64,000 nucleotides of DNA from Polychytrium aggregatum. Its lineage: Eukaryota; Chytridiomycota; Chytridiomycetes; Polychytriales. Of this stretch, positions 27,243 through 63,518 are shown in pieces (within the stretch, counting starts at the first letter, position 1; the number at the start of each line of letters is the position of its first letter). The stretch spans positions 496,001 through 560,000 of the forward strand of contig NW_026516219.1 in NCBI RefSeq assembly GCF_025602895.1, in the 5' to 3' direction. Position numbers and translations under genes: made by a program. The notes below the pieces were generated by a model. That model saw only the letters and a list, made by a program, of their open reading frames with translations, was not told the DNA's origin and did no database searches.

Positions 27243-28463
<1,221 letters not shown>

Positions 28464-30187: not shown

Positions 30188-32278
30188 ATGGACAGTCACC
30201 CGGAAGACGCTGCCGAGCAGGCAGCAGCACATCCGTCTCAGACAGGGAACCTCATCGATTCATCTCAAGATATCATCGAAACCGTCCAGGCTGATGGGAC
30301 CATCGTCCAGCAGGTTCACCACCATCACACCGTGAATCGCTATGTTAATCGCTATGTCATCTTCAATCGCTACATCTGTCGGAGTCGATGGTATGCGTCG
30401 GTCCGCCGCAAGCCCAAATCTAAGAGTGTCGATGAGCACCTCCAGTCCTTTCCGAGTGCATCTAAACGCCAGAGCCGCCTTGCGTCCACCAAGACAATCT
30501 CGGACAGTCGGGCCACATCGTTCAGTCGGGCCACATCGTTCAGCCGGAACCCCACCCTGCAAGGTGTGCTGTTTGATGCATCTCTTTGTTGGCACTTCGC
30601 TCACATTATGCGTCATCAAACACTCGTTGTTCGACGTCTGTATCGACTGAATCCTCGTATGATGCTGCATAGATGCCCCGGCTACTCTTTCGGATCGCCC
30701 GTACATCTTTCAGACGCCCAACGTCAGCAGCACCGCAATCGGAATCGTGGATGATCCCGACCGGTTTGAAAAGCAAGACCTTGTTGTCCGTCTCGGTAAG
30801 ATCCCGTGTCCACCGTCCTCCCCCGGCCTTTGGTCATGGTGTGAGATTGCGGCGACAGCTTGGTTGGCAGAGCTCTATATACCTGCTTCATCAACGCCGT
30901 GGCTATCAATGTTTGGCAAGGTCCGTTCACCGCACATAACAGTCGACTCTAATGCCCCACTGCACCCGCATATATAGGCAAGGCCCTCTATCGATACGGC
31001 GCAACCAGCTTCCGAACCGAACTCCATCTCCGCTATATATCCAGGCTTCTTCACCTCCCCGCCGACTACGCGGCATTGCCGAGTCTTATCATGGTTTCGT
31101 TCGGCCTGCCCCACGTCACAACGCTGTCCACAGAGACTTTTCTGAACTTTGCGCCCCAAGGATACGACATGGGCAAGCTTTCCGCGGTCACCCGACTCAG
31201 CGAATCCATGTGCACCAAGATCCAGGAGTGCTATGCTGGCCCTGAGCCGTCGTCAGTCAAGCCCATCCTTGTCGAAACCATCCAGGAGCTCGACCACATC
31301 ATGTCCTCTCGTGGGATGTGGGATCGTGACTGGATCCAAGCGTTCACATTCGCCCTTGCCGGCGGAGCTGTCGTCGTACTGGCCTTCAAGGGTACTTGGA
31401 TCGACTCGATGGTCAGCTTCTTCTTTGGCTGGGTCGTGGGATGCATCTGCGTCTACGGCCCCAGACTGTTTCCGAACTACACCTACCTGAGCGACCTTGT
31501 GGCCGCTTGTCTGGTCACTTTACTCATCCGCGTGGTGCAGACCCTCATTCCCAACGTATGCTTCAATTTCGTGCCGATATTCCTGTCATCGATGATCGTG
31601 CAGCTCCCAGGGCTTCCATTCACCATTGGTGTCCTGGAACTTGCATCTCAGAGTCTGGTCTCCGGAACCGTGCGGCTCGTCTATTCGCTGCTCACGGCCT
31701 TGCTGATGGCCGCCGGTGTCGTCATGGGATCGGCTATTCCTGGCCTGGCCGACTTTTTCGACACCACGGGGCACACCAACAATGCCCACCAAAGCTGTGT
31801 CATGCCCACCACTCCCACGAGTCTGTGGTGGGTGCTGCTGATGCTCCCGATCGGAATACTCTCAATCAATGTCACCTTCAAGGCCGCCATGCGCGACTGG
31901 CCAGTGATGTTTGCCATTTCGTCGTGCGGCATGGGTACCTACCTGCTCTGCACCACGCTTGGTCAGCTGCAGAATGCACCTTCCACCGCCATCGCTGCGT
32001 TTGTCATCGGGGTCCTCGGCAATCTCTACAGTCGATTCGGCGGTGGTCTGGCCACTGTCCCGATCATTACAGCAATCCTCATTCTCGTGCCGGGCTCGGT
32101 CGGCGTCCGTGGGTCCCTCCAAATTATGCTGGCGACCGACATTGGCAGCGCCTCTGCTGTCCTCAACATGTTCCTGGTTTCTGTGTGGTTGACGATCGGG
32201 CTTTGCTTCTCGACCGTCCTCGTATACCCTTCGACAAAACGCTTTGTCGATCGCCGAGATCTGTTCCGGGGCTTTTAA
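30188..32278 (+). CDS. ThrE/Prm10-like multipass membrane protein
   Basis: Three exons (30188-30563, 30673-30795, 30978-32278) join in phase for 599 residues. The first 165 residues are cytosolic, with a HHHH tract and a duplicated SRATSF segment. Then FEKQDLVVRLGKALYRYGAT and FLNFAPQGYDMGKL start the ThrE domain (amino-acid exporter family), followed by about ten hydrophobic segments from GMWDRDWIQAFTFALAGGAV to FSTVLVYPSTKRF. This is the architecture of yeast Prm10 (pheromone-regulated membrane protein 10) and related fungal proteins. Transport of threonine or another small solute is inferred from the bacterial family only. It lies wholly in the spacer of the inverted repeat. Confidence 0.8.
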
Positions 32279-34774: not shown

Positions 34775-35378
34775 TGCAAATGCGGAAATGTCGGTGTGGA
34801 GACAAGAGCAGAAGAAGGCAGCGAGTTGAGGGGGGAAGTGAATGGGGGAAGTGAATGGGGGAAGTGAATGGGGGAGGGCCCGACAGATCCAGATCGAGGC
34901 AGATCGAGGCAGATCGGGGCAGATCCAGACAGATCGGGGCAGATGCTGGGATCGAGCAGACCAAAGCGCGAACTGCTTGTCGCAGCTCAACAGCCCAACT
35001 CAATAGCCCAACTCAACAGTCCAGCCCAGTCCAGCCCAGACCAACAGTCCAGTCCAGTCCAGCCCAACTCAACAGCCCAGCAGCCTGATGGCCGAGCCGT
35101 CTGCCGCACACGGCCGGAACGAACCGAATCGCACAAACACAGAGCCATGGTCGAACTGCAGAGCAATTGAGATTGACAGCGATTCCTGGGGGGCAATGGA
35201 CATGTTGGTCAAGTCCCCCTCTCCGACTGGGATACAGACCCTTTGCGGGTTCTTGAGTGCACTGATGCATATCGCACTCTAATCACGCGCTCTGCTTGAC
35301 TTGTGCAGCCCAAACTGCGATCTTGGGGGTGCGACTGACTTGGGATGCGACGGGCGCCAAGTCCGTTGCACCGCAAAT

Positions 35379-35475
35379 CACCAGCACACCAACACACCAG
35401 CACACCAACACACCAGCACACCAGCACACCAGCACACCAGCACACCAGCACACCAGCACACCAGCACACCAGCAC
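35379..35475. repeat. octanucleotide array, right arm
   Basis: Mirror image of 29069-29165 with the same copy number and the same variant units. Confidence 0.95.
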
Positions 35476-36080
35476 AATTTGGCCATTCAGCTTCAGCTTC
35501 AGCTGTGTCGAAAGACACATGATTGTGTATTAGAGACAAATGCGATGATTGCTGGTGTGCGCCACGGTATGTACAAGAGAACGATGCCTGAGATCGGCTG
35601 GCCGGAGCATCAAGGAAAGCGAGAGAGGAACAAACGGCAAACGGCAAACGGTAAACGATCCATCTTGGAGGCAACTGCTGGGGCAGCGAGCCCCCCCCCT
35701 CAAGTCTCCAACAATTGTTGAGCATCCAGTGCCGGTCAGGCCAAGATCACATCGGGACAGGACCACGGAGCGAACTGAAATAGAAAGGATGCACAGGGGC
35801 GTGTTCCAGCGCCATAATTGGCGCGGCGGTCGACCAGTGCCGTCGAAGAATGAAAGTGTGGCAATTTTGGTATCATCTTGGAATCTCGTCGATCTGCTTT
35901 GCTAGACTTTATCTTGTGTTTGTGTTTGTGCTGTCTTGCTTGCTCTCGATCCTTGTAATGGTGCTTTTGGACTGTCGCCGTATGGTTGTTTGTCCGCTGT
36001 GGTGTACTATTGTACTGTTCCGTCAATGCCATCCCTGACATGCGTGTGTCCATGCTACCGCCTGCAGCCATGTTTGACGC

Positions 36081-37301
<1,221 letters not shown>

Positions 37302-38229
37302 GCTGTTTGCCATGTGTATGTGGCGGCAGATCCTGGCGAAACAGGCCCTCCGGATGCTGCGATATTGCCTGATACAGCAGTCGGTCGATCCTTCTGCAAG
37401 GCCGTCAAAAGTTTTGGTGCCTTTACTTTGGTCTGGCACTTTTCTCTGTTTCTTTTCCTCCTGGTTCCATTTGGCACCGCTCTCCTTGTATTTGTGGTCA
37501 TCTTCTCGCTTCCGCTCCATTGTCACTTGAACCTTACCTCCATATCCCTCGTTCCCTGGCAGCTTGGTGTATCGCCTCGCCTCACCCTGCCTTGCCTTGT
37601 CTTCCTTTGCCACGCCTCACCCCCGGCTTCACTTGATTTTTTTTTACCGCATGTCTTGCTTCACCCCCGCTGTCCCCCCCCTCGGTCTTCTCCAGATACA
37701 CCGTTTCCCCCCTCCCACTTTGGCTTCATCCTCCTCTGCCTCAACGACACTCGCTACTGCTTGCTTGTCTCGAACTGCGATCTGGCATTGGTCTTCCCTC
37801 CCTGGCTCGTCCCCGACGGATTGGTCAAGGCATTGCATCCGAGTCACTGGCACTGGCACTGGCACTGTCACTGTCGCTGGCATCGGCAATACCACCGAAC
37901 GATGCTGGTCTAGATCGTTGCTTGCCATGATGGTTTGGTGTTGTATGAACACCTGTCCCCACGAGGAATCAACCTGATGGCAGTGTACGAGCACCATAGT
38001 CTTGACGCGGCTGACAAACCCCCTCTGCAAAGACAGCACGAGCATATGAGCACAGACATCGAGACGTGATCGATGAGCAGATGCAACGTGTGTATTGCGC
38101 TGAGTGGTGATGCTCCAAGCGGTGAATGGAGCGGCAGATATTGATCCTGTAAATACATAAGCATCATCGTAAGCCAACCATGCGCATGTGTGCAAGTCCA
38201 AGTGTGTCGGTTCTTGTTGGATACTGCTG

Positions 38230-38414
38230 GTTGGTCGTTGGTCGTTGGTCGTTGGTCGTTGGTCGTTGGTCGTTGGTCGTTGGTCGTTGGTCGTTGGTCG
38301 TTGGTCGTTGGTCGTTGGTCGTTGGTCGTTGGTCGTTGGTCGTTGGTCGTTGGTCGTTGGTCGTTGGTCGTTGGTCGTTGGTCGTTGGTCGTTGGTCGTT
38401 GGTCGTTGGTCGTT
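38230..38414. repeat. heptanucleotide array, right arm
   Basis: Mirror image of 26130-26314 with the same length. Confidence 0.97.
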
Positions 38415-38854
38415 ATCGACACCGCTCTCTGCTCTCCATCCCAGAGAATGATGTCTCATGGGTGTGCTGGTATCCAACAACCTCCAAGGTGGTTCGCTCG
38501 CTTCTGCATTTGCACCGTTGGCCATACTCATGCTCATGCCCATGCCGCATCTTTGCCATACTCGTGCCGCACCAGCTCCCCTCCTGTCCTCTCGCCCCCC
38601 CCTCTCGCTGGATCGATCTGATCGATCTGATCATTGCGAGTTTATTTCGTCTGTCGATTTCTCTGTCGCTTCGTCTGTCGCTTCGTCTGTTGGATCAACT
38701 GGGATGTCCATTTCGCAGGCCCTTCCTCCGCGCGCGTTTCGGCCCTGGCCAATTGGTCGTTCCGCCTCGTCTCCGAGATCCGTGAATGTTGCGGCCCTCC
38801 TCTCTGTCGTCCTTCATCTCCCCCATCAATCCTCCGGCCGATTTGCATGCTGGC

Positions 38855-45535: not shown

Positions 45536-46928
45536 CGAATGGATTGTGGCACTCCATCGTCTGTAACATGCGGCTCTTCAAGAGAGCTAAACCGTCGGCG
45601 GTGACTACTTCATGGTGGCCAAAGAACGCACAGCACCATTCATTGACCAGGAATCATCCTGTTGTGTCGCCGCAAACGGTTCACAGGGCCTCAAGTCAGT
45701 ATGGTCTCGAGCTTCGTGCTCAGTCAAACCCTGGACTAAACGACCGGCCTTCGAGCACCAAAGGCGACTACAAGATCAGCCCGCTGTTGGATACAATCGT
45801 CCAGGTAAGCAAACCCTGTGTGCGCGAACCATGGATGGGCTCGCGTGGGTGGATCTCAGGCACTGGCCACTTATTGCGCAAATGACTATGCTGAATTGGG
45901 GTAAGGGCGGTGCCCTGGCTTCGCCAGCCCTTCCCCGGATGTCCTCGATTGCTCTGCGCATGTTGTGACTGCCGATGTTGTCTGCATTGTGTGGTGATGG
46001 CCGTGTCGCTAACGCTATCCGCACTGGTATTTGGCAATGTTCTGCGCCGTGTGTACGCACGACTGCAAAGGTCAGCGAGCAGCTCAAGTAGCGACGAGAC
46101 AGCGCGATGTCGTCCTGATGACCTACTGGATGTCAGTGGATGGCAATCGCACCATAAGCATAGGATCCACAGCCAATACAGTGAGCATCCACTGCCATAG
46201 CGAGCTGAAGAACCAGGGCCTCGTTGTTGTGTCGAAGCAGTCGCTGTTTGACTACATTCACAGTCCCCCCGTTAGGAACAGGGGGGGGGGCACTCGGATC
46301 ATGGCAGAGAGAGAGCTACGAGGAGAGGGTGGTGTTCATAGATTGCCCGTTGCGATGCAGTCTCGTTGCAATACAGTCTCGTTGCGATGCAGTCTCGTTG
46401 AATCACTCCACCGGTGATGTTGCTGCCGAGGGCGTCTTGGGTGAACTGTCCACCGGTTGTGTTGGTGTCGCATATTGAACTGCGGTGCATCGTATCGATG
46501 AACTGCGGTGTGTCATATCGATGGACTGCGGTGTATCATATCTGTCCACTTCCGCATGCGCATGCCTTGGTGGGTCGCGCAATTGCGCACCGCAGGCAGT
46601 GGGCGCCCATGAAGGCCGAGCGGGCCGCTGGTCGCCTTTCGGGCTCATGGCGGCCCGGTGAACCACTGTGCAAGGGCGCCATCCTTGTTGCATTTTTTCC
46701 CCCCCTTCGTGTCATCGTCTTGCTTTCGAATCCTTGCTGCGGATCAGTGGTCAGCCTGAACACAGAAACTGATTCTCCAGCTCCGATTCCCCAATCTTTC
46801 TCTCCGACGCCCGACCAGACCTCAGCCAGCTTCGCCCGAAATCCACTCTCCGCTTCGGCGTTGGCACTGCTCCCATCCATCGCAACGCCGCTGGACCAGC
46901 CCGCTCTGGCCGCATCCTCACCACCACG
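45536..46928. other. intergenic, possibly with the 3' end of CEP135
   Basis: 45,550-45,800 keeps a coding-like composition and could be a further CEP135 exon, but no conserved motif decides it. 46,350-46,540 has short repeats of gttgcgatgcagtctc and of gaactgcggtgt(g/a)tcatatcgatg. No other gene seen. Confidence 0.45.
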
Positions 46929-48556
46929 ATGCCAATCTTCCGTCTGCTTGGTCCAGGATCGAAAACACGTCCTCGACGCACTACTCTTGTTCCGGCTGCC
47001 GGCGAGCATTCGTTTTTCCTGGGAATCGCGGGTATCCCACTCAAGCTGCTCGAGGCGTCAAACCCCTTTGACTATGAGTCGCTTCTCCCACGTGTATGTG
47101 GCCTGGTGCGACTCCAAAATGCAGTAGCGGCCCACGACTCGCATCGCATCACGTCCATTCGCATCACCTTCGTAGGCCAGCACACGGTTGGACCCAAGGC
47201 CACCACATTCATCGAGAGGTCCGTCGGCCTGCTTCCGTCTGACTTTGAGCGCTATCTCGAACCTGGATTTGTACCATTCAGGATCGAGCTGGCCGAGCTC
47301 GAGTCTCAGGCGCTCGTCTCGGCAGCTAGGTCGCTGAGAGTCCGAACCCGGTATCGACTCTGGTGCGCCCTGGGTTGGTCCAATGGTCGGACGGTTTGCT
47401 CGGAGATTTATGACATCCCAGCGGATCATATCCGACCGATACCGCTTTCCGAATTGGCACACATTCTCGCCCCCCAACCCACCATCCAGCTTGAGCATCA
47501 CAGCTGGGATGCCGACCGCCCATCGATGAGAATTACTTGCTCGGTGGAGAAGCCTCGGGCTATTCCCGGCGATTCGCTCAAGCTCTCCTTCCGCTTGAGC
47601 CCGTGGGAGCACGGCCAGGGCTCAGGCATGTCGTCCTGTACCGTGTTCATGTCGATCATCGAAGTCATCGAGGACGAAGCTCCGGCAAGCTCTGATCATG
47701 GATGTGGCTGGATGGGTTCTCTTCCGTGGGGCATCCCCAAGAAGAAGTGCGAGGAGCACACCCTCAACATTTTGTATGTGCGTCTCGAACAGGAGCACAA
47801 AACCGACCTTGGCGTCTGGGATATGGCAAGTACTCTACTTCTTTATCGCGATATGTGGCTCGTTTTCCGCACATGCCTTCGTTTCGTTCGGTTCGGTCCG
47901 CTGTGGCTCAGGCCGCGTTGGTTCATGGGAACATGTACTGCATTTGGATGAGGGTGGATGGGTGTCCTGCGCGTCCGCCGTTCCTCAGCTACTGCCTCCG
48001 TCATTTCCTGATCGTGATCTTTATTGCGCTCGCCGTGGAATCCGACCACCGCAATTCCTGCTGTGTTTACACTGGCTAATATCGCGGTGATACACCCACC
48101 TACCAATCGTTACAACTACCGATGCAGTCGCGACGGCTCCATATCCCGTGGATATTTGGCAGCGCCCACCCGAAGGGAACCGACATTCGAAGCAACCCGA
48201 GCGTCCGAAATACGCTCTTCCACATCAGCCACTACGTTACCTTCACGTTCACATTGAGCCACTCCGAGACTGTGCGCTATCGCATCCCAATAAGTGTTGC
48301 TCAGTTTGACAGGACCGACATCGATAAGGTCCTTCCATATTTCAATGATGCCGTCAACGAAGAGATTCACAAGATCACATGCTCGAGAGTCGAATACCAC
48401 GACCCCGACGCTGGGTACTGGCTGCCGCGATTCCAAGCGTGCGAGTCATGCCTCGCCGAGCCCGGGTCGTCGCTGGACGATCGACCTCCACAATACGAAA
48501 GCTTGGGGATCCAGCCGCCGAGGAATGCTACAACCGCGCCGACCGTACCTACATAG
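46929..48556 (+). CDS. alpha-arrestin-like protein with C-terminal PPxY
   Basis: The first exon (46929 to about 47827) has an arrestin N-domain pattern: CGLVRLQNAVAAHDSHRITS, IRITFVGQHTVGP and VPFRIELAELE. PSMRITCSVEKPRAIPGDSL starts the C-domain. The last exon (from about 48125) carries TLFHISHYVTFTFTLSH and YRIPISVAQFD, the usual final arrestin strands. It ends with DDRPPQYESLG, a PPxY motif that binds WW domains of Rsp5/NEDD4 ligases, as in fungal ART proteins that direct permease ubiquitination. One or two introns between 47828 and 48125 were not resolved, so the exact join is open. The start is the first ATG of the long frame. Confidence 0.7.
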
Positions 48557-49620
48557 TGCGGTTCAAAGAGATTCTCATCGTTCCGTGCGCGGATGTGATC
48601 TGAGTCCAACGGATCAGCGGGTATGCTGGGTCAACAATGTGGCATATTGTCCCATTCGGACAAAATCACTCCGCAGTTGGATCATATCACATTCGGCTAA
48701 CGACAGAGTGGTCCAAGCCATCTCCTTGTGTGTCCTGGGTGGGCAGGGAGATGCATGGAGTGAGTGAGCACGACGAGGCCAGCGAGTCGCAGGAGATGCC
48801 GTCGCTGCAAGTCAGAGCAAGACGACTAGCCGGAGAGGGAAGGAAGACAGGGCAAAGAGCGGAATCACATTACAGTCTATCGAGTTAAAAACGGGACACC
48901 CGTGTTTTTGACCATTGAACAAATATTTTGTTACCCAGTACCATCGCGCGCTGGCCATGACCATTCGCCAGTGTGTCCAAGAGCGCCATTCACCGCCGGC
49001 ACTCCGAGACCAGTGTGCAGGTCGACTGTGGAGACCGGAAAGCGACCGGCGGTCTTCACTCGGAGGCTACCAAAGTGATCTGTGTTATTTCCTATGGCTT
49101 AGCTTGACGCATGCCATCACAGACTTCGCTGACATATGGGTTGTGGGCAAGTGTCCATTACCCCTCTGAATTAAGTGTATTCATCAGCCGTGCTCACAGC
49201 AGTGCCAGCCGATTGATATCGTTTGAATCCGCACACTCGCATGTCGCGATGTCCCATCTCGGAATGGGTTCGCTGTCCAACCAAGATCCTCAAAACGAGG
49301 CAGTTTGCTTGATTTGTGGAGACTGTCACTGAGGCCAAGGGCCAAAAATCTATTTGATAAATGAGCCGCGTCAAGGACGCCGAGCTCGTTACAACAGAGT
49401 CCAACCTCCGTGTCTGGGACAGGACAATTGGCTAATACAAGGAAGTACACATTGTAATGGAAGTGCGTGCGTCGATGGTTGGATGCAGAATGACGTTACA
49501 AATGCGAGTGTGCGGAGCATAGGGCGTGCGTTGGGGTCAAACGAAGAATGGCCAGAGAAGCGGCCAGAAACAACCTAAATCAGGGATATAATTGAGCACT
49601 GGAGCACCGGGGCTGCACAT
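48557..49620. other. intergenic between convergent genes, no gene seen
   Basis: No exon with recognisable similarity. The DNA is less GC-rich than the coding parts. Confidence 0.5.
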
Positions 49621-49833
49621 TTAGTGCGACCACTTGAACCATCTCTTGATCTTGTCCATGGAGTGGACGCTGGTACGTGAGTCCTTGGTGAGGTGCTTGG
49701 CGAGCGGGAGCCCGATCGGGGAGGAGGACTCTAGATCGAGCGACGCGGCGGCGGCGTTTTCACCCTTGAGCAGCGAATGCTTGGCGGCAAAGGCGGTGAT
49801 GTGGGCTGGCGAGCGGTTGATGGGACGGGCCAT
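49621..49833 (-). CDS. small basic-tailed protein, paralog A of an undescribed pair
   Basis: A single exon encodes 70 residues. It shares a continuous alignment with the 73-residue protein at 56312-56533: RSPAHITAFAAKHSLLKGEN here versus RSPAYITAFASKHTLLRGEN there, then a variable acidic-polar link, then P(I/L)GLPLAK followed by (H/T)(L/M)T(K/R)(D/E)S. Both end in a Ser-rich stretch and a basic amphipathic tail (MDKIKRWFKWSH here). There is no signal peptide or membrane segment. I do not recognise the family. A perfect ATAAATA box lies 65 bp upstream, as for a strongly expressed gene with a short leader. The tail could bind membrane or nucleic acid; that is inference. Confidence 0.75.
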   Translation of the reverse strand: MARPINRSPAHITAFAAKHSLLKGENAAAASLDLESSSPIGLPLAKHLTKDSRTSVHSMDKIKRWFKWSH

Positions 49834-49897
49834 GGCGGAGAAGGTGTTGATATAGCAAAGGAAGCTGGTGGTCGGGACGAGAGCTCGCCAGGCCGGG

Positions 49898-49904
49898 TAT
49901 TTAT
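49898..49904 (-). promoter_or_regulatory. TATA box of small-protein gene A
   Basis: ATAAATA on the minus strand, flanked by GC-rich DNA, 65 bp before the ATG at 49833. Confidence 0.7.
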
Positions 49905-50230
49905 GGGCCCGGCTCTGCGAGGCGGTGCAGACGGTGCAGGCGGTGAGCAAACATGTGTCGTCGGTGCAGGGGGGTGGAGGCGCACCTGTGACAACATGTA
50001 CATCATCCGCCAGGGGCGTGCACCGGCCCTGGGTCACGCCGAGTCACGCCGAGTCACAGCGACGCACAGGCGCGCCCAGCCCTGCATCGCCACTGCGGCC
50101 GCCGCCCAATCAGAATGCGTCTCCCCCGCCTCGATTCTGCCCAGACGCCCACGTGCGCTTTGCCTGGCTGCTGCGCAATCCAGCAAGTCGGCAGCCGCGT
50201 TGCGATTCCCAGGGGAATTCCAGGAGCATT

Positions 50231-50256
50231 ATCACTATGAAAAAAAAGCTGACGTG
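50231..50256 (-). promoter_or_regulatory. upstream element shared by the two small-protein genes (copy A)
   Basis: On the minus strand it reads cacgtc, three bases, eight T, then catagtgat. The CAT lies 404-406 bp before the start of gene A. A matching string (cacgtc, three bases, seven T, catcgtgat) occurs 403-405 bp before gene B. The surrounding promoter DNA is not otherwise alike. Confidence 0.5.
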
Positions 50257-50711
50257 TAAATTACGCGTTGGCCAATACTTCCCTCGCAAATCCCCCACCG
50301 GACTCAGCATAACAAGGAAAAACACGTCTTCTCGCGTTTTGTTTTGCCTTGGGGGTCGCGTCTGGCCACTGAAGCGACCGCGACGGGCTCGGGTCACCCG
50401 CATTTCTCCTTGTTCGTCCAGGTTGCTGGCTCCCTGGGTGTCCCCGAACCCGCACTGCCACATCCCGTGGAGCCCTCGGCCAATGGGCTGCTTCCGTTCA
50501 CGTGACATGGCATCCGAGTCATCCCGGCTTTTCACTGTCTTCCGCGACTCGTTCACTGTCCATGACCCCCGGCTGCTTTCCTGACTCATCTGTGTTCATG
50601 GGTCATCAGAGCCTTCGGACTTGGACAAAAACCGGGCATTTCCGCCCCCAGTTGCTTCGTCAATCTCCTCTTGATCCTTTCTCCCCTCGACCTTCTCATC
50701 CGACTCTAATC

Positions 50712-53700
50712 ATGAGTTCAGCCGCTCAACCATCTGGGCACGATCACCCAAGGCATACTCCATATCCAATATCATCGACCAGGGTACCATCCTCGATAAA
50801 TAGGGCTCACGATGGGCTTCCCAAGAACAGATCCATCTGTCGTTGTCGCAAGTGTAGCACCGATTCGCAAGGCTTCAGGATTGTCTCCAGAACGACCTAC
50901 TACGACCACTTCTATCGCTATGGCTTTCCACCTGGAGTCCCCCCTGTTCACATGTACTCGCTCAAAGATCCTCAAGAAAACACAGCTGGCCATCTTTCTT
51001 CGTTCCCTCACCGTCCTATTACAAGCATATGCGAAAATAACCCCAATTTGCGAACTTCGCCGACATTTCATCCCCCAGTGTTGGTGGTAGATGAACTGCG
51101 ACCACATGGGATAACATCGCAGCGACCTTCATTGGGTAAGACTGAGCACCTGATATCACATTCTCGCTAAATTTTTGTGTGCGTCACGGTTTCAGTCTTG
51201 AGCAATAATCAGTGATCTGTGCTTGGACGCTGCCAGAGCTCACTACGAAATGACCAATACACTCTCGATTTGTCCGACTTTGTTTCTTCATCCTTGGCCT
51301 GGCCCAAAGGCTCACCCCGCGCATTTGAGCACGAGAGCATGGATATCCAAACAGGAGCATCTATTCAGCAATGCACCCAAGACAACGAAGGCCCTGCTCC
51401 AGCTCAATTTGAACGCTGCCCTTCGTGGTCGCCAAGCATGTGGGCATCGCGGGACTCTGAAGAAGCGTCCATGTACTACGAAGACTCTGAAGACTCTTCG
51501 ATAGACTCAGAAGACACCACTTCAAGCTCACCGAGAGAATTCGATGACATTTCGGGTGAGATATCAACGTCACCCAGCCTGATCGTATCGTCGAATCTTC
51601 CTGGTCTTGCTTCAGAGTCCGGTTGACTCATATAAATGCCACGGTTCACCTTCCAGGACAGTATCCGGATAGCTTCCTCGGCCACTTTCGACTGCTTGAA
51701 ATGAATGAAGATGATGAAGAAACTGGTGACGAAGAGCCCCGCATATCAGATGGTGAGTCAAATTCAAAGGACAGATAGCAATCCGATGTAGCATCCGAAT
51801 TGATGTATTCACCCGCGGCTTTCCCCCAGATATCCCGCCCTTCTATTCGCAGCTGGTCAAGGTGTTGACCGAGTGCAATGTTACCGACAAAGCCATCAAA
51901 TCTGTCCTTAATCATTGCAACAAATTCCAAGGATTGTCATTACCAGCTGCACCCAGTCTGTACAAGATCCAAAAGATCATTTGTTGCGAGTGGAACGAGT
52001 ATCTTCAGAGGCTTCCCTGCTGCCCAAACAGCTGCATGGGATTCGACATCAATGATAACCAGAGTCGAATATGCACGTTTTGTGGAGAGGATGCTTATGC
52101 GACGGTGAACGAAAAACTTCTGAATGGCGGCATTCAACCACAACTGAGGCCGATTCAGACCTACAAGTATTTCGATTTTGTTCAGATACTTCAGACACTC
52201 TACCGAAATCCAACTATGGCAGAGTTGATGATGTACAGAGCAAACAGAGCGAGCGAACCAGGTACTTTCCACCCGTATTATTTCCCAATACTATATTGCT
52301 ATATGGTGCTCTGAACTCACCAAATCTGAATCTTCAGGCATCATGAACGACATATTCGATGCCGAATATTACCAGCACCTTTGTAGTCGCTCAATGTTCC
52401 AGCAGCCCACCGACGTTGCTCTCGGGCTGCATTTTGATGTCTTCAATATCAATCAGAGGTACGCCCGCTCTCTGTTTCAAAATCAGATTATAACCACAGC
52501 TGACCTTTGTATCTGGTGTAGGCAAAGCCATCAATCGTGGGGCTTCATCTTGATCAACTTCAATCTTCCACCTGCTCTGCGCTACAAAAAGGAAAATCTC
52601 ATTACGGTCTTGCTTACGCCTGGTCCACGATCGCCTCGTGACTTTGATACATTTTTGAAGCCGTTTTTCGAAGATATGAAGAGACTTGAGACCGGTGCGT
52701 AAGCCCCTCTGGTGTGGATCACTTGGTCACTCCACATAATCCTCGCGAGAGCACGCTGCTGACGGAGCAATGTCTCTCGCTCCCAGGTGTTGAGGCGATA
52801 AGGGTCGACAAAAATGGCGTGGAACATTCTTTCACTCTCCGAGGTCACTTGCTGTACTGCCAGAGTGACATGCCCGGATCCAACAAATTCGGTAAATTTT
52901 CTGGGCACACCGCCACGAAGGGCTGTCGTCTCTGCGAAATAACGGCCACGAGGGCCGGGGGTGCCATGTGCTTCTATGAGCGTGACACTCCCAGTCCATA
53001 CCGCACCGAAGAGAGTCTGAACAGAATATGGGAGGCCATCGATCAAGACGGCATGCCCCGAAACGGTACGTTAACGAGACGAGTCAGGGCGTTGTTTTCG
53101 ACTCCGATGTTAACATTAACTATGTTGATCAGGGATCGTGGGGCGACCAGGTGTAACTCAACTTGAGTCCATCGAGCTCAGCTTCTGTCTTCCTCTCGAT
53201 CTGATGCATGTGATCTCGAACATCGGTCCACTCATGATGGAGATTTGGAATGGAACGCGGAAGGCTCCCTCATCCTCAAGTTTGGACCAAAAGATCACGT
53301 CCAAGTGCCTGAAAAAGATCGGAAGATGGATCAGCGAAGGCAGGATTCAGATTCCAACAGGCTTTGGTGCCTCTTGTCGGGACCCTGTCTCATACAAAAG
53401 CTTCAAAACCGAAGAATGGAAGAATTGGATTATCATGTACTCCCTACCTCTGCTCAATGCGGCGGGCTTTCCACTAGAACACTTGTAAGCTCTTGATATT
53501 GTACCCTGCTCGAACCGGGGCCCGTCCTACGGTCGATGAGATACTTGATTCGAATTGATCCTAACAGTGATGCTATTGTGCCTAGATTGGGATGGAGGCG
53601 CTTTGTCTATGCCCTTCGATTGATGCTGCTTCCCCAGTTGAATGTTGCTCAATGCAATCAGATCGAGAGAAATCTTCAGAGGTTCCAGGAGTACTACACA

Positions 53701-54824
53701 GAGCAAGTAGCACGAGACAGCAGTCCCTTCACTTGAGGATGTTGGGCAGCTCACTAATTCTCAATATCTAACCACGTATACTCGAAATGTATTCACCAGG
53801 TCAATCGCAAATCTCCCAGAGTCACTCGAACCTCCTCCAGACAGAGCTCCAGACCTGTCTGGACTTCGTTTGATGAAAACCTACGTGCATCAGCTCCAAC
53901 ACTTGCCCAGGTGCATCCGATTGTTTGGACCCTTGGTATATCAATGGCAGTTTGAAATGGAAAGAACCTGTGGTCGCCTGAAGCTCATCGGGCGATCGAA
54001 GGTCCATCCAGTGGACAATATGGCCAATCGGCTCGTCCTCCAAAGCTCTCTGAGCGGTCCAAGCATTGCTCCGAACTTGACCTTGAGAGGAACATCCAGG
54101 TTGGGCGAAGACCCTGGGATATGGCCATCCTCCTTTGCAAACAATGGGCGGGCCTCGAATCAAGATAGCCGCGGAACCTTGTCTGGCCAGCAACAAAAGC
54201 TGAAACTACCTTCTGAACAAGTCGCGAAGCTAAAGAGCGCTTATGCCAGGACGATTTCTGCCAATTCCTCATACGGCTATCGTGAAGCCTTGCAATATGT
54301 CCATTCACTTTGGGATCAGAATTCGGACACTTGCTCCAAACACACCAAGATGGACGCGGGGGAACTACATGTCATATCTCAATCACATCGGATGAGCACG
54401 GCACATCATCGGATGAACTCTGTTGTGAAGGTAAGGCATTCGGCAGCGCGCGATAGCGAAGCCTCATATGAGCTAATGCATTCTGAATCTACAGGTTTGG
54501 ACCAATATGCCCGATGCATCAGCAAGCAATCACCCATATTCTTCTGTCCGCTTCTATCAAGTCCAATATTTCATCAGCCACTCCTTTGATGGAGAAACAA
54601 CAAACTGGGCATACTGTGTGATTCCAAAGATCAACATCAGATATGGAGATGACAGTTCAGGATACCGCCCATGCAAAGAGTGTGCTACCTTTCACCTCGA
54701 CAGCATGGAGTCAACGAATCATATCTTTGTCCCAGTCGATACAATCGTTTCTACTGTCGGATACTTCGAGATGGAAGGCGGTGGGTACAGCTTTGCTGCA
54801 ATTGGAGAGGCAAAGTCAGGCTGA
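50712..54824 (+). CDS. Tnp2-type (CACTA-like) transposase-related protein, multi-exon
   Basis: Successive exon-sized frames follow the order of fungal Tnp2/Transposase_21 proteins: an N-terminal ICRCRKCSTDSQGFRIVSRT zinc-binding motif; CCPNSCMGFDINDNQSRICT with FCGEDAY; GLHFDVFNINQ; LPPALRYKKENLITVLLTPG with PRSPRDFDTFLKPFFEDMKR; HSFTLRGHLLYCQSDMPGSN; KFSGHTATKGCRLCE; CLPLDLMHVISNIGPLMMEI; IPTGFGASCRDPVSYKSFKT; VHQLQHLPRCIRLFGPLVYQ. The stop is at 54824. Stretches between motifs look like normal short introns (for example 51771-51830 and 52262-52337). The junction near 51136/51237 does not keep phase, so either the model or the gene is broken there. No CACTA termini, inverted ends or target duplications were found, so it may be a domesticated gene or an old insertion. 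Confidence 0.65.
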
Positions 54825-55892
54825 TACTTATATCAACCATTCCAGGTGGCTTTTATATTATCGAGCAAGATCCTCCGATTTGACAAGTCGATGCAAATGT
54901 CGCAGGTAGTTGGGCCAAAAAGTGCTTGAGGCCGCTTGATGACGAAGGGAGTTTGTCCGAACTTGACCCATAGTGACCATATCAGTGTAATGACAGGTCA
55001 AGTCGGAAGGTTTGGAATATAAATATCCCCCCGACCACCGCTTCCTGCCCGCTTCCGTCGTCAGGCTCAAGTCAATACTCCCCTCAGGCCCTCTCTATCC
55101 TAACTTCCTCGGCGGGCCCATGAGCCGATCGATGACATAGGTGCCGTTAAACGCATGCATATTGAGGATGAGCCGCATCATGAATATGTCTCTAATGTTT
55201 TTAACTCTAACGCTTCCTCTTTCACTATCTTGAATATGTCTCGAATGTAGGAAGCCATCCAAATCCAAGTAAGTCCCTTCATGACGATTGAGTATCATCT
55301 GAGAGAGCTCGAAGGCGACGCTTCAACTAACCGCATCGCTCATTCCCTCCAGATATCCTCGCCCCCATGGGACATTATCTTGATTATTATCATTTCGGGT
55401 TTGTTATCACTTGCGTTTTTACTGAACACGGCATATCATACCGCATTCTGTTTGCGACTCTGAGGTTAAACTGGCTGGTGGAGCAGTGACCACCGCGGGT
55501 TTGACCTAATCCTGGACTAGTTAGAACGGCCGAGGATTGCCCCAGGAGTTCACGGTGCCGCCCAACGGCGGTCGGAACTGGGGTGTCCGAAAGGCAGTTC
55601 TCAGAACGGGTCATGGTGAGGGAGAATGAGGATATGAGAGGTTCGGGGCCGGGAGAAACCGGGGCGGAGGGGTCCCGGAACGGAGCGGGACGGAGCGGGA
55701 CGGCAAGCGAATGCCAAATCGGGCCAGAGCACGTGTGGGAAGCAACGCTGTTGATTGGCTAGCGAGCAGTCCCAAAATGGCATCGTTCGGACGAGGCTGC
55801 ACCAGACTGTCGGCACACACGTGACTCATTCTGTGTCTTAATGTGCCTGCTGACCAGGTCCCGAGCCGAACACAGCCACTGTAGAGGGGTCA
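54825..55892. other. intergenic, with an isolated promoter-like block
   Basis: A TATAAATA at 55018 is followed by a pyrimidine-rich leader (cccgaccaccgcttcctgcc) like that of small-protein gene A and an ATG at 55121 that opens only six codons. A 60-residue frame at 55281-55463 has one hydrophobic segment but no support. CACGTG occurs near 55728. Confidence 0.35.
55018..55025 (+). promoter_or_regulatory. orphan TATA box
   Basis: TATAAATA followed by a leader that resembles that of the small-protein genes, with no long reading frame after it. Possible remnant of a third family member. Confidence 0.35.
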
Positions 55893-55915
55893 CGTCCTAT
55901 TTTTTTCATCGTGAT
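55891..55915 (+). promoter_or_regulatory. upstream element shared by the two small-protein genes (copy B)
   Basis: cacgtc, three bases, seven T, catcgtgat. It lies at nearly the same distance from the start of gene B as its counterpart (50231-50256) from gene A. Confidence 0.5.
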
Positions 55916-56220
55916 TCCGGGGGCATCGAGACGGCCAGAGACAGATCGCCAGATCCAGCTGCGTCTGCGTCGAGGGCAATCCATCCGATCATGTCGCTCT
56001 CGGTGTCGATCGCGCTGGCTGCCCCCCCCCCAATGCGTTCCTGCGCTGCTGCCACGTTGCTTCCAGCGCCTTCCATCGGGCCAAGCCCGGCTCAAGCCCG
56101 CTGTTGCGCAAACAGAACGTGATTGTGTTGGCTCGGCTGGCCTCCAGTCCATTGTCTTCCAGCCCACAAACGGATTACGACAGAGCGGTCGGGCTCGCAA
56201 ACAAACAAATGGAGCACAGG

Positions 56221-56228
56221 ATATATAG
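56221..56228 (+). promoter_or_regulatory. TATA box of small-protein gene B
   Basis: ATATATAG, 84 bp before the ATG at 56312, followed by a pyrimidine-rich leader. Confidence 0.65.
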
Positions 56229-56311
56229 AAACCTACCTATCCAACTTGCCTCGCTCCCCGCCTCCGTCGGCTGCAGCAGCTCATTCAGCACCATCCTGTG
56301 CCCCCGTCGCT

Positions 56312-56533
56312 ATGCCCTCTGGCAAATCACACCGATCTCCGGCCTACATTACCGCCTTTGCCTCAAAGCACACCCTGCTTCGAGGCGAAAACGCCCAGAT
56401 CGCGTCCCAAGATCTGGCGGCTCCCAATCCACTGGGGCTGCCCTTGGCCAAGACCATGACCCGTGAGAGCTCCTCCTCGCTGAGCAGCCTCACCGGGATT
56501 AAGCATTGGCTCCGCAAGAAGTTCGAGCGCTGA
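56312..56533 (+). CDS. small basic-tailed protein, paralog B of an undescribed pair
   Basis: A single exon encodes 73 residues. Its conserved parts are SPAYITAFASKHTLLRGENA at 9-28, PLGLPLAKTMTRES at 40-53, a Ser-rich linker, and the basic tail TGIKHWLRKKFER. About half of its residues are identical to paralog A (49621-49833), in a pattern that points to selection: the first 28 residues and the GLPLAK block are best kept. It is transcribed away from paralog A, with the Tnp2-like gene between them. Function unknown; no signal peptide, cysteine or membrane segment. Confidence 0.75.
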   Translation: MPSGKSHRSPAYITAFASKHTLLRGENAQIASQDLAAPNPLGLPLAKTMTRESSSSLSSLTGIKHWLRKKFER

Positions 56534-57315
56534 GCGTGCGGCCGCGCCGCATTGCTTCCTTCCAGCCTCAGACTTCGTGTTATGTCTGTTTCGGTGGGCC
56601 GGCAACGGATCTCATTCACATCGGCTCCAGACTGGCCAAGTTGGCCCTGGACAGCTTTGTTTTTATCTTTCCTGTTCGTCCACACCCCAACACTCATCGA
56701 TACCGCGGGAACATTCCTTTTCTGCTCGCACATTTTCCCCCAATTTTGTCGGTCTTCTGAGATCTGCCAGCCCTCTGCGTCGCCTCGACGGCCGCTGGGG
56801 TGGAGCGTTCTTGGAATCCGCTGGCCCAATTCATATTCGGTGATGCCGATTCCGCAGTTCACGCAAGCAAGACCGGCACTGCAATATATCCATATCGAAC
56901 TGGGACACTGCTACACATGCATGGCTTGTGGGTTGCGAAGGTTGTGGATTGCGGGACGTCGATCGTTCATCAAGCAACACCGTTCCTTGCCCCGCGTCTT
57001 CCTCACCCTCCGGGTGTGTCCTGTGCGAAAATGCTTGCTGTGCTTCAGTGTGCACTGTCTTCCGTCTGCCCTTTTGGCCGCTTGGCTTCTGGAGGTGGCG
57101 TAGAATCCGATTTGCGTTTGCTGCGTTGCAAAATAAGTCGGCGGTCAGCTTTCTTGAGGTATAGAGATGGAACCCCGCTTGAAGGCTACGTGTCGGAACA
57201 CCGAGTTGCATTGACGCCGAACGTGCCATCGCACAACGCCGCCCCAAGACAGGAGTGTATGTCCCTCCAGGCCCATGTCGTGGGGACGCCTGGTCTTTCT
57301 TGCAGATGGCTCACC
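56534..57315. other. intergenic between convergent genes, no gene seen
   Basis: Frames here show no domain or plausible splice pattern. This is probably the 3' flank of small-protein gene B and of TRM5. Confidence 0.5.
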
Positions 57316-60300
57316 TCACCTTGCTTCCTCAGGACGGCTTTCGCCTGCAGGGTCGGCATATGCCACCGCAGGCGGGATACGGAAGCTGAGACAGAGCATC
57401 TCTTTCTTGGGCGCCACATCGCGGACCCGGTGGATGTTCACGACGCAGCCCTTGATGGAAGCTCCCAGATAATGCTCGGCCCTCTGGAAGAGTAAGTACG
57501 CCATGTAAAATTAGCTCCCGAGCGGTGGGCGAATGCTTGCATGCACAGCAGCCGGGAGCAGACGCGACGGCTTTCCTTCCTCGACGTGCTCATCGACCGG
57601 CCAGATTCCAGCAAAAATGCTCGCACCCGTACCTCAATCACATCGGCGTCCAGATCCTCGGCCTTGGAAAAGCAGTGGACGTGAACGATAGGAAGTTTGT
57701 CGTCCGGGACGATATTTTCCTTTCCATGGAGTAGCCCGCGGAATGCATCTTTTGGAGGGAGGGGGTAACAGGACGGCGGCGGCGCAAGTCCGCGAGTTAG
57801 TCTATCACTCGAATAGCCTGCATTCTGGTGCTGTGTGGCTTGACAGATTATCGATCACAGCACCAACGGAGCTGTCTACCGAGACCAGTCTGCATCACCC
57901 CTAGCCAAAGACGCACCCAAGAACTCGATCGCGGTGGCCGGGAGATTCATGACATAGTGGTGAAAGATCTTGAAGCCCTCGGGCGGGTGAAGCTGTTTTG
58001 TCTTTTGGACCTCGGCGAGTCGCTCGGCCTCTCGCTCGGCTTCGGTTGGCGGAATTTTGGGGTGTCGGGCCGGCCGCTTAACCTGGACGTTCTTGCGGAA
58101 CTCCTCCCAAACGGCCGGGTCGTTGAGATACGTCAGCGATTGGCGGATGAAAGCCCGTCCGTCCATGTTGTAAGGACGGACCAGATGGCCAACCTGCTCG
58201 TACAGATTTCGTGTCAGCGAATCGTACTGCCAGGAGCCAGGAGCCCGGAGCCCCTGCGCATAACACGGAAAGGGCTATGATGGAGCGATGGCCACCACAG
58301 CTCTCACTGGACCAACACAACTATCCAAACGCTCGATTTCATCGCCATCGCCATCGCCATCGCCATCGCCATCGCCATCGCCATCGCCATCGCCATCAAG
58401 AATAACCAGTGCTTACGCGGTTGAGACCAACGTTTCCAACAAGCGATGAGTAAGAGTCCGGGTTCAGATCGTTTGCAAAGACGACCGCACCGCGCGTCTT
58501 GGCCGCCGGAACGGCGAACGGGCCCACGCCCGCCATGACGTCGCAGATCAGATCGCTCGAGCCGAACGACTTGACCAAGCGCTCGTGCTCGCCCTGCAGA
58601 CGAGAGTTCCAGTAAACCTTGGAATAGTCAAATTGGAAGCGGCATCCCCCTTCTTTCTGTCGATTGGAGGTGTTGGAGAGAGCAGAAATTGCAACGCCGT
58701 CAGACCTGGACACTGTCGACTCCCAGTCACTGCGCCAGCAGGCATCGATATCAACCTCTCTTTGAATAGGGCCCGGCATACGAACAGAGCGCATCCACTG
58801 ACCATCTCCGTCACAAAATTGTCCTCTCCAGCCAGAACCTCCATTTTGAAGAATCTGAAGGTGTGGTCGATGCTGTCCAGCTTGTTGACGACGGTTTTGA
58901 TGTACTTGTGTTTCTGGTCAACGAACGAGGGAATGGCAATGGAAACACATGAGATTGGGCAAGGCACGAAAGACGAGGCCTGGCAATCGATTTGAACGCA
59001 TGGCTCAACCGTTGATTCTTGCAGGCTCCCATCGCCATCCGCCCTGAGCATCTGCCTTGACACTCACGTCAATGATGACTTGTCCAATGATGTTTTTGTA
59101 GGGCATGTGCTGTTCTCGAAGATTCAGGTGGGCTACAGTCCACGCAATCAACCAATACGTCAGACAGCGCGGCCTCTTTGGCTGCCCTTGGCTGTGTCGC
59201 TAGTTCAGACTCGATATTTCGATCGATCGATGTATAGCCTGATGCCCTCGGTTTGGTGCATTCCGTTGGATCAACTCGGTCCGATGCGCTTCGACAGGCT
59301 AAAGTTTGCCGCCCATGCTCGTCATCCAACAGCGATCCATACTAGTCTCATACTATCCATTTGCCAGCCCGGACCTACCGATGTGGCCGACCATCTCAAA
59401 GGCAGAGGGTACTTCCAAGTCGTCCGGCAGAATCGATCGCAGGATCTGGTCTGAGTTGTCGGTTGGTGACCAATAGCTTGGCATCAGTATCCAGGAGACC
59501 GATCACTCGTCCGTTTCCTTGCCGCTAAAGAACCCTGCCTCTGATGAACCTCGTCGTGTCCGATGCCAACCATTGTCTGTTGGCCATCGCCCTTCGCCGC
59601 TGTCGGAAGGTGGTCTGCTCCTGGCTTGGGCTTGGGCTTGCCTCCCCACCACAACAGCTGCTGGAGCAAGATGCAAATCGCGCCTAACCTGCAGACCAGT
59701 AGTCGTAATCCAGTTCGACCGAGTGTGTGACGAGCTCGGCCTTCTCGGAGAGTGCGAATTGCTTGACATTGTCGGGCAGGCTGTCAATGTCTGGCAGAGA
59801 TACCACAGCGTCAGTACAAACCAAAGCATCCCGCCAGTCCAACTCAGCCTGACGACCGACCAGACCTTTATTCAGCTGTCGCCGTATGTCCTCACGTACT
59901 CAGTGGCCCGAAAGATAGAGCCCCAGGCTCCCCGAACAGTACTTACTGCGGGCTTGGATCTCGGGCGAGAGCAAGACCAGGCGACGGGCATTGCGCTTCG
60001 TCATGCCCTTCTCGACATCCTGTGGATCCTCGATCAGATGCCGGAGCTTGGGGATGTTGAGCAGGCTCCTGTACGACCAGAACCACGGAATAAAATTGAA
60101 TTGCTTTCAGAAGAGATCGGGCAAGAGCGGGAGACTGTTCCGGGTTATGTGGGGGGGGGAGAAGGGAGAGAGGGAGACTCAAAGAAAGATTGCGATCTCG
60201 CGGGCAACTGAGGAGTCTTGCCCTGGGACGGGTACATTCGGGGCCATATTTCCCTTCAGTGCTCTCTGGATTTGGCTGCTCGATCTCGCCGACCATCGCT

Positions 60301-60471
60301 CTCTCCACCATCGTCGGAGAATGCTGACCCTTCCAGCGCCGGCAGAACCTTGGGACAGGTGGCCACGTCGACTCGTAGAGCTGCCAGCTCGATCGACCTC
60401 TTGAAGAGCAGCTTCTCGAGGGTCTTGATGCCCTTATTGGTCGGCGGTGCGAGCAGCTTGATGCTGGACAT
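57316..60471 (-). CDS. TRM5: tRNA (guanine37-N1)-methyltransferase Trm5
   Basis: The exons read in Trm5 order: MSSIKLLAPPTNKGIKTLEK at the start (60471), SLLNIPKLRHLIEDPQDVEK, LPDNVKQFALSEKAELVTHS with VELDYDYWSA, NIIGQVIIDKHKYIKTVVNK, CRFQFDYSKVYWNSRLQGEH, then the SAM-binding LICDVMAGVGPFAVPAAKTR and VVFANDLNPDSY. After these come RAFIRQSLTYLNDPAVWEE, the substrate-pocket motif FHHYVMNLPATAIEFLG, LPIVHVHCFSKAEDLDADVI and a last exon (57483-57316) with VRDVAPKKEMLCLSFRIPP. About nine exons. The enzyme makes m1G37 in cytosolic tRNAs and a mitochondrial pool. The intron at about 58405-58290 contains a (CATCGC)n repeat. Exact exon edges in the middle were not all fixed. Confidence 0.88.
58340..58396. 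repeat. hexanucleotide repeat (CATCGC)n in a TRM5 intron
   Basis: About nine perfect copies lie between the SAM-motif exon and the next exon of TRM5, close to the donor site. Confidence 0.95.
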
Positions 60472-60854
60472 GGCTGACTGCTGCTGCGATGAGGGATCTC
60501 GGATGCAAGGCGGCAGATGTCGGGGTGCGATCGCGAAGGCAAAGGCGAGGTCGGTGATCAGACAATCGGGCTGTGGCTTGGCAAGCCGGGAGGACTTTTG
60601 GCTCGACATCGACCCGTGCGTGTTCTGGGTGACAACAGCTTCTCAGAGCCGGACCACCAGTCTCGCCAGGGTAGTGGCAATTGGGCAGCATCTGCGAAAT
60701 CAAGAGCCCGCCTCCATGTGTGTCCTATGGAGCCCCAAAATATATATACTTTGTCTTGATCGGCCAAGGCTCGATCGAACAGGATCGGCCTCTGGATTCT
60801 CGGCAGTGACGGATGTGCCTCCTCGTCTCGACCGAGATGCAGTGGTCAACGAAA
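60472..60854. other. intergenic between CorA-like stop and TRM5 start
   Basis: Contains the TRM5 promoter; a TATA-like run (atatatata) at 60741-60749 on either strand. No gene seen. Confidence 0.5.
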
Positions 60855-63518
60855 CTACAGCGTCCGACGCTTCTTCCCTATTCCCCAAGTCGCCCAAAGC
60901 GCAAGGAAGGAAAGCAAGCAGGCAAGAACGGCCAAAAGCGCGATGCACATCTGCCAGTGCACCAGTGTGTCCTCCTCCTCGCCTGGGACATAGACGTTCA
61001 TGCTGCCGGAGGTGGGGAGGTGGTGAGAAAGCCACGGTGTTAGATGCAATCGGCACGAGCATTCGAACCCAGGCAGAGTGAGTCGAATTGGCGAACAACA
61101 CCTATGGCGACCTATCTCACCTCATTATCCCTGTGAATAGTGTGAGCGGAACGACGATGCAGCCAACGGCGGTGAGGTTCTGCATCGTCCTCGCAACCAG
61201 CTGTGCTGATGCCGTGATATGATTATTCAGCAGCGAGAGATATGTGCTGTAGTGGCTGTGTGGTCAAAGGCAGAATGGCTCAGATCCCATGTCGAGCCAG
61301 CGCAGCTCAGAGGAGCAGCCCCATCCGCTGCAGAGTCAACAGCCAAGACAGAAACAGAGAATACATACGCCGTCAGTAGGTCGTCGTAGTTTATCAAAGA
61401 CTGCATCATGCAAGCGGCTCGGTCCTGAAGAACACACGCACGTTGGTTTAGTACAATGTGAGGCCATGACCTGCTCAGCCGTAGGTTGTCTGTCCACGGC
61501 GACAAATCCGCTTGGATTCAGCTCGACCATCAAATGCAACCGGCTCGGGATGCAGCTCCAGCTCACCTCTGCGCCTTCAAAGTACAACTCTAGCTCGTCC
61601 TGGAACCAGTCGGCGCTGCATTTCTTCCGGACAATGCGCGAGATGTGCACCTTCTCGATAAAGAGGCGCATGAGCAGAGTGGCACGCTTGCGAGCCGAGT
61701 GAATTCGTACGAGAAGGATGCTCGAATTGCGGAGAGTGTCGCGCGCGAGCAGTTCCTCGATAGCGTCGGTTTCGACATCGAGCGATTGAATCAGTGGCTC
61801 GAATGAATTGAGGATTTGATCGAGAAGCTTGACGGACGATCGCGGCCGTTGAAGTGATGGGAGCGGTGGAGGTGATGGGAGCAATTGGGCGACTGTCAGG
61901 GATAATAGCAGTGACAAACGTGCATGTGCATCCATTTCACCACACGGGCAGGGTGTTTCATGGCCATCGACCGAATGGGGACGGACTTGGAAGCCTCAGC
62001 GATGCGCATGCGTACCAGGTATGCAATCCAGGTGGGCTCAAAGTATGCTGTGATCTGGTCCTTCACCAGGTTCTGGTTGTGTGTGTGAATGATGCCCAGA
62101 CGCTGGACGACGTTTTGACAGTGCGGAATTGGCTCCGGATGGATGCTGATGATGCAGCCGTCGAGGACGATGATCGCGACGGGTATTGGCTTCAGAAGGC
62201 GAGGCCGACTGTCGTACTGATCAATGACTCTGGTGATGATGACAAAGTAGTTGTCTTGGGTCCGCGAGAGCATCGAGGGTGAGTTGCTGTTCCGATCGAG
62301 TTGCCTGCCGAGACAACTGGCCAGCAATCGCTCCAGGTGTGTCCTGGCAAGTAAGCAAGCCCAGGCAGCCATCCAAAGCGACCTGCCCCTCCCCTGCCAG
62401 AAGCCTGAATCCTCCTGCGAACACCTCCCAGAGAGCTCACCAAACAGATCGCACTTTTCTCGCCGCAGTTCGTCCTGTTGGATGTCTTCGAGAGTCAGAG
62501 GATGGATGTCAAAGACCTTCTCGAGCAGATCGTATTCTTCGGGCGTGGGCTGTTGAATGTCGATCCAGAAGGTTCCTTCGTCGGCCCGGCTTCTCAGCCA
62601 GGTGCCATCGTCTCCAGCCAGCCCCTGTGGATTTGAAGCCAAGCCAGCGTGCATATCGACGACCATGGGTGCAGCCACGCATAAAAAGCAGATAGTGTGA
62701 GGATCGCTGAGGGACGGACATTCCAGGGTCCATGGTGAAATCGGAGCACATCGTTCTCCAGAATAATGCAGGACAGGGCCGTCGATCACCCCGGCACTGA
62801 ACCATACCAAAAGGCCATCGGTCTGAGCCACACCAAGAGCGGACGAGTAAAAGTAGCACCGCGGCTGCAGGATCGACAGGATCGACGGTGATCGCTTCAT
62901 CCTGGACTCGGAGGGGATGTGCCCCTGGATATCGAGGGACGGGATGGGCCAGCCCAAACGAACATGCTTCTGGAATTCGCTTTCGAGATGGTCCAGATTC
63001 CATGTTTTGATCAGTTCGGCGTCGTCCTCGATCGAGTCGGATGATTCAGAGCTGCCGGACAGAGCCAACGAGAGCGAAGACTGGGCAATGGACTCATCGA
63101 AGCGGAGGTCGACGGGATACTCTTGCGGCAGGCTGAGCTGCGAGCTTTCCGAGTCGGACTCGGACTCGCTGTCGGAGAAGAAGTCGAGCCGGATCGAGCG
63201 GCGCCGCTGGGAAAAGGACAGATCCCGGTCCCCATATTCATAAGATGCTTGGCTCGCTTGAGAAAGGGGGCTTCCACCTTCGGGCGGGAAGATCTTGGAG
63301 CCCTGGGTGGGCGTCGATGGCACCGGGAACAGCGGGATGCTCGCCTCGCTGGAAACGACCCGTGGCCACAGCACCTGGCTCTGGCGACGGCTGCTCTGCG
63401 GGGTGGTGAGGAAAATGGGCGGCAGGTTCTCAGGGCCGGGTTCATCTCGGCGACTGGGGGGGTCGAAGGACGGGGCCGAGAGCAGGGATGTGCGTTTGTA
63501 GGGGGTTCCGGAGGGCAT
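60855..63518 (-). CDS. CorA/Alr1/Mnr2-type divalent cation transporter with SMN in place of GMN
   Basis: Six exons keep phase for 635 residues: 63518-62441, 62254-62016, 61827-61567, 61424-61369, 61246-61121, 61002-60855. The N-terminal 250 residues are Ser/Asp/Glu-rich and cytosolic, as in fungal Alr1 and Mnr2. The CorA fold follows: GTFWIDIQQPTPEEYDLLEK, HPLTLEDIQQDELRREKCDL, NYFVIITRVIDQYD, LDGCIISIHPEPIPHCQNVV. Helices LLDQILNSFEPLIQSLDVET and LLVRIHSARKRATLLMRLFI come next, then TM1 LTAVGCIVVPLTLFTGIM, loop SMNVYVPGEEED and TM2 QMCIALLAVLACLLSFLALW. The pore-mouth signature is normally GMN; here residue 587 is Ser, made by the codon AG/C across the last intron. It probably sits in the plasma or vacuole membrane. 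Whether it still carries Mg2+ is uncertain. Confidence 0.85.

Follow-up and report, generated by a model that had tools for sequence, protein, structure and literature searches.

Uncharacterised families of small proteins are common in early-diverging fungi. Among the small fungal proteins that carry names are Hsp12, Con-6, Con-10 and Grg-1, charged polypeptides of low complexity that belong to the stress response or to conidiation. A second class of sequences bears on the locus described here, namely DNA transposons of the CACTA/EnSpm type. The action of the transposase at the terminal inverted repeats is established for such elements in general, and the transposase domain tnp2 is usually accompanied by the domain DUF4218.

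Termini of the form CAC..GTG and target duplications of 3 bp have been used for the classification of fungal EnSpm elements, and the EnSpm families treated in the excerpts of that work considered here (CMCT clade) carry a TET/JBP dioxygenase gene (PMC12730594). The same excerpts describe Plavaka elements, which have a related transposase, target duplications of 2–3 bp and termini that read TGT..ACA in PlavakaA and CATCA..TGATG in PlavakaB (PMC12730594).

The DNA analyzed in this study, referred to as the window, is a stretch of 64,000 nucleotides that lies in contig C79 of a genome assembly of 64.7 Mb and 418 contigs. An initial annotation of the window drew attention to two small genes (A and B) with a matching element at a matching distance upstream of each, and interpreted this element as regulatory. 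The matching itself was confirmed: the window has exactly two copies of the string cacgtc-N3-T7/8-cat-N-gtg, one at 50233-50256 (minus strand) and one at 55891-55913 (plus strand), and the string is separated from gene A by 399 bases and from gene B by 398. The regulatory interpretation did not stand. Judged by sequence, the string is the terminal inverted repeat of a CACTA/EnSpm-type transposon, and its paired occurrence goes beyond chance with this transposon as the cause. We assign a probability of about 0.95 to the reading that an insertion of this type between the head-to-head genes A and B accounts for the repeated string. The features of the locus, by window position, are the following.

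49621..49833, minus strand: gene A, intronless open reading frame (ORF) of 70 amino acids, MARPINRSPAHITAFAAKHSLLKGENA...DKIKRWFKWSH
49834..50232, no strand: part of the ancestral head-to-head intergenic region next to gene A, 399 bp with the left duplication ATT and the extra AT counted in
49898..49904, minus strand: TATA-like box upstream of gene A, ATAAATA, first base at -71
50233..55913, plus strand: DNA transposon assigned to the CACTA/EnSpm type, 5,681 bp, missing from contig C34
50233..50256, minus strand: left transposon end with terminal inverted repeat, the "upstream element" of gene A in the initial annotation
52343..52702, plus strand: exon-sized ORF with a Transposase_21 (tnp2) domain (Pfam E 2.6e-10; score 40.3 bits, gathering threshold 28.6)
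53873..54589, plus strand: exon-sized ORF with a sub-threshold match to DUF4218 (Pfam E 8e-5; score 22.9 bits, gathering threshold 27)
55891..55913, plus strand: right transposon end with terminal inverted repeat, the "upstream element" of gene B in the initial annotation
55914..56311, no strand: part of the ancestral intergenic region next to gene B, 398 bp, starting with the right duplication ATT
56222..56227, plus strand: TATA-like box upstream of gene B, TATATA, first base at -90
56312..56533, plus strand: gene B, intronless ORF of 73 amino acids, MPSGKSHRSPAYITAFASKHTLLRGENA...GIKHWLRKKFER

The same two genes occur on contig C34, where they are arranged head to head and 793 bp separate their start codons. 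This contig is 99.4% identical to window positions 45800-50230 and 99.1% identical to positions 55914-61329, and the DNA between these two stretches is missing from it. Three further 9.9-kb pieces of C34 match the window at 99.8–99.9% over unique stretches, the inverted-repeat region aside; the comparison as a whole covered four 9.9-kb pieces, or about 40 kb out of the 120 kb that the contig measures. The differences between C34 and C79 are scattered single bases and small indels, and the ORFs of A and B show zero nucleotide differences between the two contigs. On these alignments C34 is most simply read as the other haplotype. Four of the 18 listed differences, a list that leaves out a length difference of roughly 42 bases near 58.3–58.4 kb, fall within 158 bp at window positions 49968-50125, in the part of the intergenic region next to gene A.

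A repeat search of the window found the two ends of the inserted DNA to form an inverted repeat. Its termini are CACTATG...CATCGTG, and the terminal sequences CACTATGAAAAAAA and CACGATGAAAAAAA are alike at 13 of 14 bases. Nine ORFs of the element were scanned in all and, apart from the two listed above, the remaining seven gave no match above the curated cut-off. The target site of the window copy reads GAGC-ATT-CCGGG when empty and GAGC-ATT-AT-[element]-ATT-CCGGG when filled; the duplication is not clean, with ATT on both sides and, on the left only, an additional AT.

The element is a dispersed multi-copy repeat with breakpoints at its termini. Its first 368–372 bases are present at 22 places and its last 491–521 bases at 21, the window included in both counts and one match each, the flank of the empty site on C34, excluded from them; identities range from 97 to 100% at either end. 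CACTATG starts all of the 20 left ends examined and CATCGTG closes 17 of the 20 right ends, the other three (98% variants) being unmatched to the 30-base terminus even with eight substitutions allowed. From these ends 18 left/right pairs were formed, four of the 22 left ends staying unpaired, and of the 17 pairs that could be read, 10 have the same 3-mer on both flanks. Among the seven pairs that fail the exact 3-mer test, six, including the window copy (ATT), share 3–4 flanking bases after a shift of up to two positions, as judged by eye. The copy on contig C2 has no flanking bases common to both sides, even shifted. This copy (C2:451508-457188) and one on another contig (C311:7645-13327) have a common left flank and a matching target duplication is found only in the latter; they are possibly recombined copies or alleles. 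At C397:662807-686409 the element ends lie 23.6 kb apart, compared with 5.7 kb, and the flanking 3-mers still match (TTG/TTG), which perhaps represents a nested insertion or an enlarged element.

As far as the excerpts of the comparative work extend, the element resembles fungal CACTA/EnSpm elements of the CMCT clade in its tnp2 domain, CAC..GTG termini and 3-bp duplications, but differs from them in that a Pfam match to TET/JBP is missing from the nine ORFs scanned (PMC12730594). A likeness to Plavaka, as characterized in the same excerpts, exists in the related transposase and in the target duplications of 2–3 bp, whereas the termini CACTA..CGTG differ from those of both PlavakaA and PlavakaB (PMC12730594). 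Because the termini are CAC..GTG, the duplications measure 3 bp and the Plavaka termini are different, the element is filed as CACTA/EnSpm-type, a class assigned from sequence characters (tnp2 domain, termini, target duplications and dispersed copies). A literature search for Plavaka or EnSpm together with chytrids found nothing, one for CACTA in Chytridiomycota gave a single paper, and no wider absence is claimed.

With respect to the genes themselves, the description of A and B as intronless, paralogous ORFs with shared blocks was correct: the proteins align at 51% identity, and in a protein search of the genome each retrieves the other (E about 1e-17). A third paralog, gene C, is encoded on contig C90 (76 amino acids, laid out as A and B) and is 44% identical to A and 35% identical to B (26/74). 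When the three proteins were used in turn as queries against the whole genome (E up to 10), three family loci were obtained, with A and B present on both C79 and C34, and none beyond A, B and C. A small protein family, as had been proposed, is thus supported by three loci, by substitutions compatible with coding and by the lack of a match above cut-off to any catalogued family in Pfam or NCBIfam. Pfam gave no match to A or B at E up to 1, and the best matches of gene C in Pfam (DUF3378, E 0.14) and of the search against PDB sequences (uL23, E 0.09) are taken as chance. Pattern matches to the family were obtained in viral contigs (37) and in prokaryote genomes (25), and none of either set was confirmed as a homolog. 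As far as Pfam, NCBIfam and PDB sequences reach, the family appears uncharacterised. Its members recall Hsp12, Con-6, Con-10 and Grg-1 in small size and charged, low-complexity character, and are set apart from them by the Pfam scan, with no match for A or B and a chance-level DUF3378 match for C.

The upstream regions of the three genes contain TATA-like boxes, which start at -71 in A and -90 in B (offsets from the ATG measured on the empty allele) and at -153 in C; the boxes reported earlier for A and B are present, the distances then given being 65–84 bp. The CCAAT boxes noted on either strand include ones that begin at -278, -282 and -295 in the promoters of A, B and C, respectively, and TTC repeats at 10-base spacing were noted in those of B and C. 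The promoters of B and C also contain a 15-base near match, TTCCAGCRCCTTCCA; as 4 of 40 shuffles reach it, and 8 of 40 if the comparison takes in the entire intergenic region, it is not claimed as a common motif.

In favour of the string as a shared cis-regulatory element jointly controlling A and B, the string, its distance and its orientation relative to the gene are all alike for the two genes. An element with mirror-image ends inserted at the midpoint, however, accounts for the equal distance and the same relative orientation, the near-exact midpoint (399 against 398 bp) being taken as a coincidence. Sought either exactly with 6–9 T or, in its 7-T form only, with up to four substitutions, the string gave no match in the DNA surrounding the genes on C34 (9.9 kb) and C90 (9.5 kb) and so is missing from both the empty allele of the pair and the third paralog locus; on that account it says nothing on co-regulation. 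Its absence from the other family promoters is, within this genome, the outcome that the initial annotation had named as refuting its view. The string is the terminus of a repeated transposon, the ends of which recur at 21–22 places. Once the transposon is removed, the promoter halves of A and B share no ungapped match better than in shuffled sequence (38 of 40 shuffles reach the best one), and the same applies to A and C (34 of 40). The string is accordingly rejected as a shared regulatory site, and a cis-element of this kind is scarcely credible. Co-regulation of A and B is nevertheless plausible for another reason, as the empty haplotype has one divergent intergenic region of 793 bp through which it could operate. 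It is improbable that the transposon ends have been co-opted as a boundary or enhancer altering the expression of A and B on the insertion haplotype: the insertion does lie within the promoter region, and ACGTG is present in both termini about 19–24 bases from the end, but the near-identical copies together with an allele free of the insertion make the event look recent.

The transposon reading makes use of C34 as the empty allele, and this contig might instead be a duplicated locus. The assembly is not double everywhere, the C90 region being found once, which would allow for such a duplication; the four C34 pieces nonetheless follow the window at 99.1–99.9%, and the scattered single-base changes and small indels that separate them are of the kind that alleles would show, so that a duplicate is decidedly unlikely. 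Since an empty site exists, the transposon conclusion stands in either case. A similar question concerns the small ORFs, which are short, have no family match and could be merely duplicated DNA instead of genes. Between A and C the coding frame is only just ahead of others (0.44 against 0.42–0.43), in line with that suspicion. In all three pairs, on the other hand, the coding frame is stop-free and more similar than any of the other five frames, codon position 2 has the fewest changes, and a TATA-like box precedes each of the three genes (by 71, 90 and 153 bp). Values of dN/dS (Nei-Gojobori) are 0.51 for A-B, 0.54 for A-C and 0.38 for B-C, with dS of 0.97–1.79; ratios near 0.5 at dS of about 1 or more would indicate only modest purifying selection. 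The substitution pattern appears compatible with coding, and an origin of the ORFs as non-genic duplicates is very hard to sustain.

Some features of the encoded proteins can be predicted. Net charges, counting K, R, D and E only, are +6, +7 and +9 for A, B and C, and the highest hydrophobic moment in an 11-residue window lies near the C-terminus in each (0.74, 0.58 and 0.65, respectively), a value reached by 6–11% of shuffles of the C-terminal segment. An AlphaFold model of A built from a three-sequence input is of low confidence (mean pLDDT 58.8, pTM 0.23), and only the last ten residues, which are helical, average 77. These data suggest basic, poorly structured proteins with a C-terminal amphipathic helix. 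Tentatively, A, B and C may be small peripheral membrane proteins that dock via this helix, the proposed docking segment being DKIKxWFK in A and C and GIKHWLRK in B. A search of DNA for the KIKxWFK pattern with one mismatch allowed gave three hits, corresponding to gene A (on C79 and C34) and gene C, and none in gene B; the reversed control pattern gave zero hits.

The history proposed for the locus begins with paralogs A and B head to head across a 793-bp intergenic region, a state still present on C34. A CACTA/EnSpm-type transposon of 5,681 bp then entered this region almost exactly at its middle on the window haplotype, duplicating about 3 bp (ATT) and pushing the genes 6.5 kb apart, with the terminal inverted repeats as the sites at which its transposase would act. 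Each gene was left with 398–399 bp of its own side, including a TATA-like and a CCAAT box, and hence probably retains its core promoter; control shared across the midpoint would presumably be interrupted on the insertion haplotype. The insertion itself is ordinary and well resolved, and it explains the striking part of the initial annotation by turning an apparent regulatory coincidence into a documented transposition event. As a caution for similar loci, where an "upstream element" recurs at mirrored distances from two divergent genes, its two copies can be nothing other than the ends of a transposon lying between them. With empty and filled alleles in one assembly, the effect of splitting the promoter should be readable from allele-specific RNA. 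A broader and rather doubtful proposal is that a lineage-restricted family of membrane-docking proteins of about 70 residues in a zoosporic fungus includes a pair that was driven by one divergent promoter, recently split by a heterozygous midpoint insertion and uncoupled on one haplotype; if true, the two natural alleles would allow shared promoter control to be tested in an allele-specific way.

The attribution of the DNA to a chytrid in the initial annotation is compatible with the presence of radial-spoke (flagellar) genes, for which eight matches above cut-off were found in this genome and none in 14 control genomes. Polyrhizophydium stewartii was considered as the source and set aside, since the 132 DNA transposon copies in 68 kb reported for it (PMC12204190) agree poorly with some 22 copies of 5.7 kb. 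Elsewhere in the window, positions 25842-29746 and 34798-38703 form a 3.9-kb inverted repeat with arms that are 99.97% identical, each of them holding a 26-copy array of a 7-bp tandem repeat (26130-26314 and 38230-38414). The segment of roughly 5 kb between the arms has an ORF for a ThrE-type transporter (30953-32278) and is reversed on C34, as far as the sampled end shows, which reflects either a haplotype inversion polymorphism or an assembly flip. About 1.9 kb past gene B, an ORF on the minus strand (58396-58794) has a TRM5/TYW2 methyltransferase domain (E 1.5e-18).
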